Below the pieces are notes generated by a model, which ran no database searches, was not told where the DNA came from, and saw only the letters and a program-made list of their open reading frames with translations. Both the position numbers and the translations under genes were made by a program. A stretch of 64,000 bases of DNA from Methanobacteriota archaeon (lineage in GTDB: Archaea; Thermoplasmatota; Poseidoniia; Poseidoniales; Thalassarchaeaceae), in NCBI GenBank assembly GCA_018654845.1, contig JABIKU010000002.1, positions 1-64,000 of the forward strand, given 5' to 3'. Numbering within the stretch: the first letter of the stretch is position 1; each line of letters opens with the position of its first letter. Below are positions 35,352 to 57,682 of this stretch, piece after piece.

Positions 35352-36521
35352 TCATGGTCGCAATTTAGATTTAGCAAGTCTGATATTTGAGTCGTTTGGG
35401 TAATTATTTTCGGCCATTGTTAGCATTTTATCAACCGATTGTGAACGACCAATTCTCTGCAATAAAGCTCCGATTGGATAGATTAATTTCGTCCGCTCAC
35501 CCAGATGTGGGCCAACCTCATCAAGCAACGTCGTTGCTTGAGCTGTATTCTTAGCCCGAGCTGCTTCCATCGCCGATTTTACCGCCAATGCAACCTTTCG
35601 ATCTGGCCATTCTTCCTGTTGATCCCATGGCCAGTAATTCATCTGAGGTTTTGACGCTGAAGTTAGGATATTATTGCCGGAAATAGGTGGTATTTTCGGA
35701 GGAGATGGGATCGATGGAATTTGAGGGGGAGGGGGGATGTTTGGAGGAGGAGGGATTGGTGCAGGTTCCGGTTCTGGTTCAAGTTCTTCTTCACCGAGAA
35801 TTCTCGATGTTAGATCAGCTTTTGTTCCCTCGGTTGAAAGCCCTTCTTGAGTTGCGATTGAAATCAATTCATTCTTCGGTTTCTTCATTAAATTCGTGAA
35901 AGAAAATGGTTCAGGTTCAGGCTCAGGTTCCGGTTCAGGTTCAGACTCAAGTTCAGGCTCAGGTTCCGGTTCAGGTTCGGGCTCAGGTTCGGGCTCAGGC
36001 TCGGATTCAGGTTTCGATTCTGGTACACCCACCGGTTGAATCAATTCTAATTTCTTATGTTGAATAACTTCTAAAGGTTCCAATTCTTCATCAGGAATTT
36101 CAAACTTTGTCACGAATTCAGGAGCATCCTCTGGTTTGAGATCATAATCTTCTTCTTCTTCATCTACGGGTTCAGGATGGTCGACTGTCATCGCAAGTAT
36201 TGGATCTCCTTTCATGATAACTCCATTGTCATCACCATATTGTTGAATATCGATTGTGACATCATCGATTTCAAAGGTCATCTTCGACCAATCTATGATT
36301 TCTTCTTCATTTTCTTTATCTATATCGGCTAGCAGTTCATCGAATAGGTTTCCTGCATCCGCCTCGGCTACTGTCGCATCTTGCTGATGAGCCGCCTTCT
36401 GAAGTTGGTATTGACAAGTGCTACAACTCTCAGCATCGACTGAGTTTTTTTGTTGACAAAGGGGGCACTCAATGCCGGTTTCTTCCTCCTTTCTCCACTT
36501 TTTGAAACGGTCAAAGACCAT
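35352..36521 (-). CDS. Zinc-ribbon / (EP)n-repeat / SAP-like domain protein
   Basis: N-term [18 protein letters not shown]; long EPEPEPEP stretch; [36 protein letters not shown] is SAP-like. Confidence 0.7.
35907..36012 (-). repeat. Hexanucleotide Glu-Pro codon repeat
   Basis: Degenerate (ggttca/ggctca/ggttcc)n on the + strand encodes EPEPEP...ELESEPEP on the - strand. Confidence 0.8.
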
Positions 36522-54210: not shown

Positions 54211-55275
54211 ATGTCGAAGCGAAGTCTTTCAAATCTAGCTTCGTTCATTCGCGACATTGGTAGTTCTTGTTCAAAGGTTAGAATCATCGATGGGGTATTG
54301 ATTGCCGGCTCAATAAACGGCAAATTGAATGGCTGGGCAACTTCGACTGGCGAACTGCTTTGGAGTGTCGAAATCGATGGTATCATCGCTGATTTCGATT
54401 TCGAAAATGATACAATTTACACAACCGGGCCGAATAAATTATTCGCATTCTCAACAAATACTGAAAAAATATTGTGGAGTGAAGAATTGGAGGGCGGTGG
54501 CGACTTTGTGCGAATAATCAATGAAGAAATCTGGGTCACATCTTCAGTGTATGATATTGAAGTGTTTGATTTTATCGAGGCAACAACCCAGCGGTTTTCG
54601 AAGAGTGGAAAATTACTAGAAAAGTGGATCATTAACGAACGGCCATGGTTCCTCGGCGCAACACAAGGGGATGTTATTCTCGGCTTAGGTCGCCCTCGTT
54701 GTGGTGGAGTTCGGGTTCTGCCTGGTGAGATGTCCGAGCATTTTTTGCTCAGTAGCAATCAACCTGTGACTTCAGGAGCGAATTCGATTGACCGAATTTA
54801 TTTCGGTCATTCGGATGGGACTGTAAGCACTATCGATTGCAAATCTTTGAAGATTAACGATACCGCTCATCCCTCGGATTCTCTCGTCACTTCGATTATT
54901 AGTTCAGAAAATGGTTGGATATCAGGCCATGAAGATGGAACGATTTGTTTTGATAATATGGATTTTCATTTTGATGGTAAAATCGATTCCATCGCTAATT
55001 TTGATGGAAATTGTTGGGCTAGTTTTTCGAATAATGGTAAAACGAATCTTGTAATCATCGACTCTGCGCAAAGCCAAACTTTCCTGGCTCATGAAAATAG
55101 GGTTAGATTTACCCATTCCGCCGACAAGGGGCTTGCCCTCGGAGATGACTCGGGAAAAGTTCTATTTTTTGAAATTGAAGTTGTCAAGCGCAGACTCGCT
55201 GAAAGTAATAATTCAGAAAAAGATGAGAAAAAGAGGGGACTGCTCAAAGACCGTCTCCGTCAGCTTCGTAGTTGA
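54211..55275 (+). CDS. PQQ/WD40-like beta-propeller protein (no signal peptide)
   Basis: Repeated blades: IIDGVLIAGSINGKLNGWATSTGELLWSVEIDG; NSIDRIYFGHSDGTVSTIDCKSL; NGWISGHEDGTICFDNM. Confidence 0.75.
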   Translation: MSKRSLSNLASFIRDIGSSCSKVRIIDGVLIAGSINGKLNGWATSTGELLWSVEIDGIIADFDFENDTIYTTGPNKLFAFSTNTEKILWSEELEGGGDFVRIINEEIWVTSSVYDIEVFDFIEATTQRFSKSGKLLEKWIINERPWFLGATQGDVILGLGRPRCGGVRVLPGEMSEHFLLSSNQPVTSGANSIDRIYFGHSDGTVSTIDCKSLKINDTAHPSDSLVTSIISSENGWISGHEDGTICFDNMDFHFDGKIDSIANFDGNCWASFSNNGKTNLVIIDSAQSQTFLAHENRVRFTHSADKGLALGDDSGKVLFFEIEVVKRRLAESNNSEKDEKKRGLLKDRLRQLRS

Positions 55276-55382
55276 TATTTTTACAGTGGAAATTAACAAA
55301 ATCATACCCTTGCATACCCCTATTTCCAGTGGACTGCGGCTCTATTGGAGAAAGGTTTATTGACCCGACCCGCACCTGAGAA

Positions 55383-56020
55383 CTTTGCCGCTTCGGTGAA
55401 GGGGTGTGGGGCCGCTTAGGCGGAACCCGCGGGCCACAAGAACCGAGCCCCGGAAATGGGGCGGTAGAACCGGAGATCGAAAGAGAACCGGGGAAGAGTT
55501 GGAACGCCCTGTGGGCGGGAAAACAACGGGAGAACTGAGGTGGGAAGAACCGGACGAAAGGAAGGGGAAAGAAGCAACAGGGAAAGCTGAGGAAAACATA
55601 ACCGAACTGTTTCGACAGGGAAAACACGACCAAAACAGAAAACCATCCCGAAGAGGTAAACGAGCGAAGGGCGGGAACCAGCAATGGAACAGACCTGAGG
55701 CACGGGTACGGGAAAACGAAGAGGAAAAGAACTGGACGCAAGGAAGGGGAAAAGAAACGGAGAGGAAACGAACTGGGAACGAGAGCGCAGAAATGCGTGG
55801 AGGACCAATACCGAGACGTGAAAAGAACTGGTGAGAGCTAGGGATGGAAGCGGAGACGGCGAAAGATGGAGAGATCCAACAAGAGTCGGAAAAGGACGAG
55901 GAGACACAAGTAGTCTCGGAGTCATCTACCCTTGGAAAGCAGGGGCCTTAGGGCCCCGGCGGACCGGGGACCCTGCGGAGTAGCAGGGAAAATGCTCCCC
56001 CAATGTGCATTTTTCCTGCT
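55383..56020 (+). ncRNA. Candidate long structured ncRNA, purine-rich/U-depleted, ending in strong hairpins
   Basis: ~800-bp gap between convergent genes; T about 7.5% and purines about 75% over 55441-55920 (hand count); hairpins CCGC-TTAG-GCGG (55412-55423), GCCCC-GGAAAT-GGGGC (55447-55462), CGCCC-TGT-GGGCG (55505-55517) and the 3' set at 55942-56020. Boundaries estimated. Confidence 0.5.
55982..56020 (+). terminator. Long stem-loop at the 3' end of the candidate ncRNA (terminator or processing element)
   Basis: AGCAGGGAAAATGC (55982-55995) / GCATTTTTCCTGCT (56007-56020): 14-bp stem with one G-U wobble. Confidence 0.4.
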
Positions 56021-56080
56021 GCTCCCACCTAATTCAAAAGCCCATTATTTTCTAAGACCTTAGCGGAGCGTTTCTCAATT

Positions 56081-57682
56081 CTATTCTTTGGGCCCAATCA
56101 TTAATTCTGGTCTGACCCATTCTTCGAATTGTTGATCTGTTAACAATTTTAATTCGAGCGCGCTTTCTCTAAGCGTCAATCCTTTCGTGTGTGCATTTTT
56201 TGCTATTTTTGCAGCATTATCATAACCAATATGTGGATTTAATGCTGTTACTAACATCAAGGAATTTTCAAGATGAGACTTGATATTATCTTCATTGGCT
56301 TCTAGACCAATTACACATTTATCGGAAAAAGATCGACAAGAATCTGAAATTATTCGAACGCTATGAAGAAGATTATGGATCATCATTGGCTTGTAGACAT
56401 TGAGTTCAAAATTACCTTGGCTTCCACCGATTGAAATCGCAGTATTATTGCCCATAACTTGGCAACATACCATCGTCATCGCTTCAGCCTGGGTTGGGTT
56501 GACCTTGCCTGGCATGATACTAGATCCGGGTTCATTGGCCGGAAGTGCAAGTTCTCCAATACCGCATCGAGGACCTGATCCTAACCATCTGATATCATTG
56601 GCGATTTTCATTAGTGATGCAGCGAGTGTGTTAAGCGCTCCTGATGCAGCGACAATTGCATCATGTGCAGCCAATTGTGCAAATTTATTATCTGCGCTAA
56701 TGAATTGTAATCCGGTTTTTTCAGCTATTTTTTCTGCAACGTTTTCAGCAAAATCAGGATGTGTGTTCAGCCCTGTACCGACTGCCGTTCCACCTAGAGC
56801 AAGTTCCAGTAAATCGGTAAGTGCAGCATCTATTCGGCGAAGATCGGCATCAAGCATCGAGACATATCCGCCAAATTCTTGACCGAGTGTCAAAGGTACG
56901 GCATCCATCAAATGGGTTCTACCAATTTTCACGATGTTTTCGAATTCTTTGGCTTTATTTGCGAGTACAGTGCGTAAATGACGTACTGCTGGAATTAATC
57001 GATGATGGAATTCCTCGGCTGCAGCGATATGCATTGCAGTCGGGAATGTGTCATTACTGGATTGTGCCCGATTGACATGGTCGTTCGGGTGAACTGGAGT
57101 TTTGCTTCCAAGAACACCATTTGTCAACTCGATTGCACGGTTCGCAATAACTTCATTTGAATTCATGTTGGTTTGTGTTCCAGAACCAGTCTGCCAAATT
57201 CTGAGTGGAAAATGATCGTTGAGTGAACCTGAAATTACTTCATCACAAACAACTGTAATCAAAGAACCGACCTGTTCATTGAGTTGACCGAGTTCGACAT
57301 TGGTTTCGGCTGCTGCTTGTTTGAGAATACCAAAAGCGCGAATAATTGCATATGGCATTGTATCGGTTCCAATATCGAAGTTGATTAGTGAGCGGGCTGT
57401 TTGAGCGCCATAATATCGGTCTGCTTGAACTTCCACTTCCCCCATAGTATCTTTTTCAATACGAATTTGTCCACTATCTGCACGAGCTGAACGGCTCGCA
57501 AACTCCGGCTCGAGTCTTCTTGGTTGAGCATCTGCTACAAGCGAGGTTTCAATCATTTTCGAAATTGTAGCAGAGCGCCCTCCTGTGCGCCCTTTGCCAA
57601 CTCTTCTATCGAGTTTTTTTGCCAATTCTTCAGGTATACTGATGCTCATTATTCTGCGGTCGCCCGCTCGGTGCTTCACCAT
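56081..57682 (-). CDS. fumC: Class II fumarase with N-terminal ribbon-helix-helix (CopG/Arc-like) domain
   Basis: N-term [40 protein letters not shown]; then [25 protein letters not shown]...[19 protein letters not shown]...[21 protein letters not shown]. Confidence 0.95.

Follow-up and report, generated by a model that had tools for sequence, protein, structure and literature searches.

The 64,000-nucleotide stretch of DNA analyzed here (the window), from an ocean archaeon of the Poseidoniales (family Thalassarchaeaceae; genome G000), very probably contains a gene for a conserved, structured non-coding RNA, as judged from comparative sequence analysis. This putative RNA gene is previously uncatalogued and is conserved across both families of the Poseidoniales (Marine Group II). 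The predicted RNA is 648 nt here and ranges from ~430 to 1,270 nt by lineage. An initial annotation had proposed a long structured non-coding RNA at positions 55383–56020. Sequence conservation, covariation, a fixed promoter, the lack of a conserved reading frame and the lack of an Rfam match support that reading, and its limits are within about 10 bases of those of the conserved element, approximately 55383–56030. Features of the locus are listed in Table 1.

Table 1. Features of the RNA locus and its surroundings (positions in the window)
Feature	Positions	Strand	Remarks
Propeller-like protein gene	54211–55275	+	weak PQQ_2/WD40 Pfam matches
Upstream inverted repeat TGGAAAT-N28-ATTTCCA	55287–55328	.	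~20 nt 5' of promoter
Predicted archaeal core promoter	55350–55361	+	BRE-like GAAAGG and TATA-like TTTATT
Putative ncRNA	55383–56030	+	start from TATA spacing (~55383–55387); end past terminal hairpin; 63-sequence alignment
5' domain (R1)	55383–55525	+	38 pairs, 23 compensated
5' hairpin GCYRCUYC-NNN-GRAGUGGYG	55387–55405	+	both families, syntenic locus
Interior module copy 1, core GAACCGGACGAAAGGAAGGGGAAA	55526–55570	+	80% identity with copy 2 (45 nt)
Interior module copy 2	55708–55752	+	45-nt module; second of two in window
Interior hairpin GCGCA-GAAA-UGCGU	55785–55798	+	3 of 5 pairs significant, tree-based null
Interior hairpin	55865–55880	+	3 of 6 pairs significant, tree-based null
3' domain hairpin around GGGGCCUUAGGGCCCC	55930–55969	+	2 pairs each compensated in 11 sequences
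3' terminal hairpin GCGGAG...CUCCCA	55975–56027	+	both strings invariant, 18 homologues, both families
Candidate T-run terminator	56048–56051	+	TTTT in ATTATTTTCTAA; by inference

Conservation and distribution

A BLASTN comparison with relatives, as the initial annotation had suggested, reveals homologues across both Poseidoniales families. The 785-nt segment used as query has matches in 26 of 60 genomes, its own included, with DNA identities of 67–95%. Nearly all members of the genus match over almost the full length (74–95%), and much of the family matches at 67–76%. The homologues are situated between the same two genes, which encode a propeller-like protein and FumC (fumC, positions 56081–57682, - strand) and are convergent, as had been described. 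The propeller-like protein is mostly only 24–41% identical between genera, as it is in much of the genus itself, and reaches 85% in the nearest species; the RNA, at 67–95%, therefore evolves more slowly than its neighbor. A homologue of the RNA is found at this locus in all 11 sampled genera of its own family and in three genera of the sister family. The alignment used below consists of 63 full-length homologues, all from one family.

Two covariance models extend this distribution. Model R1, which represents the 5' domain, matches 112 genomes of its own family (f1) and two of the sister family (f2) at E ≤ 0.001. Its seeds came from 19 of the matched genomes, so that most matched genomes are non-seed. 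Among 390 sampled genomes of the phylum, R1 has no match outside the order. Model R2, which represents the 3' terminal hairpin, matches 22 sister-family genomes. The 5' hairpin pattern together with R2 adds genera g2, g5 and g8 of the family and g15, g17 and g22 of the sister family. In the genera so added the interior is unrelated in sequence, and the promoter, 5' hairpin, 3' hairpin and gene neighborhood are retained; in g2 the gene is recognized by its 3' hairpin, its position and its high purine content alone. In eight further genera of the sister family no match was accepted, and the RNA is thus either dispensable in them or beyond detection. Matches to the 5' hairpin pattern in two g13 genomes were discarded, as they lie in coding-like sequence that has neither the promoter nor the 3' hairpin.

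When 84,980 species genomes were scanned by pattern, 69 matches fell in Poseidoniales-type records and one elsewhere, in Microbacterium, which is attributed to chance. Nothing convincing was found beyond the two Poseidoniales families. The RNA is apparently inherited vertically, and nearly all genomes have a single copy. In one metagenome-assembled genome the 5' domain is present twice (G060, contigs C34 and C42), as it is in a second (G277, C64 and C69); these pairs may represent contamination or a true second copy.

Coding potential and known RNA families

Open frames are present on both strands of the window, and the segment might on that account be taken for an unannotated protein gene or an artefact of composition. 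This is very hard to credit. Both candidate frames are broken within the genus by indels of 1–2 nt and by stop codons, a Pfam search of the candidate frames in the segment yields no match, and the compensatory base changes described below also contradict it. A protein-coding gene is rejected on this basis. A conserved reading frame, named beforehand as evidence that would count against an RNA, was looked for and not found.

An existing Rfam family had also been named as counterevidence. A scan with Rfam shows no match at the gathering score in the window or in 14 homologous loci. With the threshold relaxed to E ≤ 10, positions 55200–56120 show implausible sub-threshold matches only; mir-451 and similar hits represent chance matches to the terminal hairpin. 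The segment is not a missing RNase P or SRP RNA, in agreement with the failure of the initial annotation to match it to either: the genome has its RNase P RNA (RF00373) at G000:C6 with 234 bits and its SRP RNA (RF01857) at G000:C14 with 120 bits.

Promoter and conserved ends

All 69 homologues for which upstream sequence exists have a TTTA-type box that starts exactly 31 nt 5' of the GCYGC hairpin, and a GAAA of the BRE type ahead of it is nearly invariant in this set. A conserved predicted promoter of its own, at a fixed distance, is what is expected of an independent non-coding RNA gene. The start at ~55383–55387 is placed by the usual spacing of archaeal promoters. An inverted repeat is located upstream of the promoter. 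The pattern TGGAAAT-N28-ATTTCCA has a single match in the window where 0.01 would be expected, and it is rare in the genome; with GGAAA...(A/G)TTTCC as a strict pattern, the repeat is recovered in 56 of the 69 homologues. It is a candidate for a regulator site or for a terminator of the propeller gene.

Conservation of the RNA is higher at the ends than in the middle. This property would also fit a long transcript that is a precursor cut into one or more shorter stable RNAs, one of which could be Tan1 (Thalassoarchaea ncRNA 1), a 229-nt RNA that ranked fifth in Marine Group II RNA-Seq from the Red Sea (PMC5069720). Tan1 was reported in 2016 as an abundant non-coding RNA of unknown function with a predicted complex structure, and its homologues within the Thalassoarchaea are 75–79% identical (PMC5069720), which is close to the within-genus identity of the segment RNA. 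On the other side, conservation of the 3' hairpin alongside the 5' domain suggests that the full length is kept, and a precursor is considered unlikely. Compared by published description, Tan1 and the segment RNA come from the same archaeal group and have similar within-group identities but differ in reported length (229 nt versus 648 nt). Tan1 may be a part or processed fragment of the segment RNA, or another RNA. Beyond this possible case, no other description of the RNA was found in the open-access literature.

Composition and interior modules

The segment had been described as unlike the rest of the window in composition, and it is in fact the extreme of the window in two respects. Positions 55441–55920 contain 188 A, 172 G, 84 C and 36 T, i.e., 75.0% purine, and the hand counts given earlier (36 T, 84 C, 75% purine) are exact. 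In 480-nt sliding windows over the whole 64 kb, T averages 27.0% (sd 3.2) and purine 50.7% (sd 3.8); both the T minimum and the purine maximum fall inside the RNA segment. A makes up 54%, G 32% and U 7% of the unpaired positions in single-sequence folds of the RNA. The unusual composition results from A/G-rich single-stranded stretches that separate GC-rich hairpins. The scarcity of T runs is not a separate constraint: runs of four or more occur at 0.20/kb compared with 4.3 in the window, and the base composition predicts as few.

The recurrent motifs GAAC(C/T)GG and GGGGAA, of a kind pointed out earlier, were found in the sequence and are enriched in the 63 homologues over dinucleotide shuffles. 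The first has a mean of 2.0 per RNA against 0.38, with six in the copy of the window, and the second 4.7 against 1.6. Motif GACGNAAGG has a mean of 1.5 per RNA against 0.09 in shuffles. Homologue L018 has six copies of the interior module in a 63-nt form. These comparisons support an RNA gene whose interior turns over by duplication of short modules, e.g., GAAC(C/T)GGACG(C/A)AAGGAAGGGGAAA, by which it would grow and shrink, with both ends fixed. In genus g3 (L068:2664-3328), a tandem duplication with 92–97% identity covers ~330 nt of the gene and takes in the terminal hairpin.

The A/G-rich unpaired positions and the repetition and enrichment of some motifs are also properties of a possible trans-acting regulatory RNA or sponge, in which purine-rich loops would pair with pyrimidine-rich mRNA targets. 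However, a sponge would need neither such length nor such conservation of structure. In the simplest case the RNA would titrate the 16S anti-Shine-Dalgarno sequence; this is not supported, as Shine-Dalgarno-like 6-mers are depleted (0.65 versus 1.78 per RNA). A sponge is judged a little less likely again than a precursor.

Secondary structure and covariation

The three hairpins named in the initial annotation (GCCCC-GGAAAT-GGGGC, CGCCC-TGT-GGGCG and CCGC-UUAG-GCGG) are all present in the sequence. The + strand of the segment has a folding z-score of -3.9 against dinucleotide shuffles, compared with -1.9 for the - strand; in 11 of 11 diverse homologues the + strand has the lower value, in some by a slight margin.

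The RNAalifold consensus of the 63 homologues has 71 base pairs, 48 of which show compensatory changes. When substitutions are re-placed along a FastTree tree as a null (an R-scape-like test), 16 of the 71 pairs are significant at E < 0.05. The all-against-all form of the test yields no pair at E < 0.05, and the claim of covariation therefore depends on testing a structure that had been predicted from the alignment itself. The top ranks of the all-against-all test are rich in pairable columns, including those of a helix absent from the consensus (columns 501–516 and 502–515). With this basis, covarying base pairs as expected of an independent structured non-coding RNA gene are present in the predicted structure; the all-against-all test alone would not show them.

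For the 5' domain, shuffled alignments average 13.7 compensated pairs and 0 of 500 reach the observed 23; shifting the pairing partners reduces paired cells from 95% to 43–52%. The 3' terminal helix covaries, with 0 of 500 shuffles reaching it on cells and score, and in a deep set of nine divergent sequences 99.4% of the cells of this hairpin are paired. The 63-sequence consensus predicts no conserved structure for much of the interior. A candidate 5-bp pairing of positions 55429–55433 with 55972–55976 is nearly invariant, hence it has no covariation support.

A complex structure with several covarying hairpins might also be that of a catalytic or ligand-binding RNA, such as a ribozyme or giant riboswitch-like element. 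Against this, the predicted RNA gene possesses a promoter and a terminal hairpin of its own, and the downstream neighbor is convergent; in addition, the interior sequence is highly variable, unlike an active core. A ribozyme or riboswitch is improbable.

Comparison with other large RNAs and possible function

The segment RNA resembles OLE, ROOL and GOLLD in that it is long (hundreds of nt), structured and non-coding. It differs in being archaeal and chromosomal, and it does not match their Rfam models. ROOL and GOLLD occur in phages and prophages, close to tRNA islands (PMC12286853), whereas a search of phages and viral contigs gave no match to the segment RNA. A phage or plasmid origin is rejected since searches gave no matches, and the locus represents a fixed chromosomal position. 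The likeness to ROOL and GOLLD put forward earlier holds for size and ornateness; it does not extend to homology or to a phage link. RNase P RNA and SRP RNA, which this genome also encodes and which are likewise conserved and structured, have 16% and 21% T compared with 10.5% in the segment RNA.

The preferred reading is an independent RNA gene ancestral to the Poseidoniales. The + strand would be read from its own BRE/TATA promoter, possibly under a dedicated regulator bound to the upstream inverted repeat, and the product would not be translated. In its predicted fold, a 5' hairpin domain and a 3' terminal hairpin, both fixed, enclose a purine-rich, U-poor interior. With its two ends capped, the transcript may be stable and abundant, and the purine modules, which recur between short hairpins and are mostly unpaired, could act as multivalent sites for binding or tertiary contacts. 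Other large structured RNAs suggest, by analogy, that the RNA may act in trans as a ribonucleoprotein scaffold. This mechanism is tentative and, taken by itself, falls slightly below an even judgement. The RNA gene and the scaffold role together, graded as a compromise between the two, form a rather probable explanation. Whether the RNA represents a large structured archaeal class, ancestral to the Poseidoniales, with fixed ends and an interior that duplicates purine modules, and acting as a ribonucleoprotein scaffold or an RNA-only assembly, is evenly balanced. If true, such a class would have a function without known precedent in any cell.

Marine Group II archaea belong to the most abundant archaeal plankton of ocean surface waters and are not known to have a cultured representative. 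A conserved RNA of such size in these small genomes suggests an important function, and it also suggests that the large ornate RNAs of bacteria have a counterpart in archaea. The putative gene also exemplifies replacement of an interior by module duplication with both ends kept constant. The coordinates and conserved motifs make the RNA directly searchable in existing ocean metatranscriptomes.

Neighboring genes and other features of the window

The propeller gene is the most constant neighbor of the RNA and stays upstream where fumC is not adjacent; in one g8 genome fumC no longer adjoins, and the RNA is still 3' of the propeller gene. The propeller-like protein is conserved in position and diverges fast in sequence. 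It is a possible partner of the RNA.

The fumC frame has an N-terminal extension of ~45 residues (57545–57682, - strand) ahead of the fumarase. It looks like a ribbon-helix-helix DNA-binding domain; a Pfam search of the frame matches the fumarase part only. In several genera, the alignment of FumC homologues begins at residue 1. At 35352–36521 (- strand) there is a protein with long PEPEPEPE repeats, and because the - strand encodes them, this region is the most pyrimidine-rich stretch of the + strand in the window.
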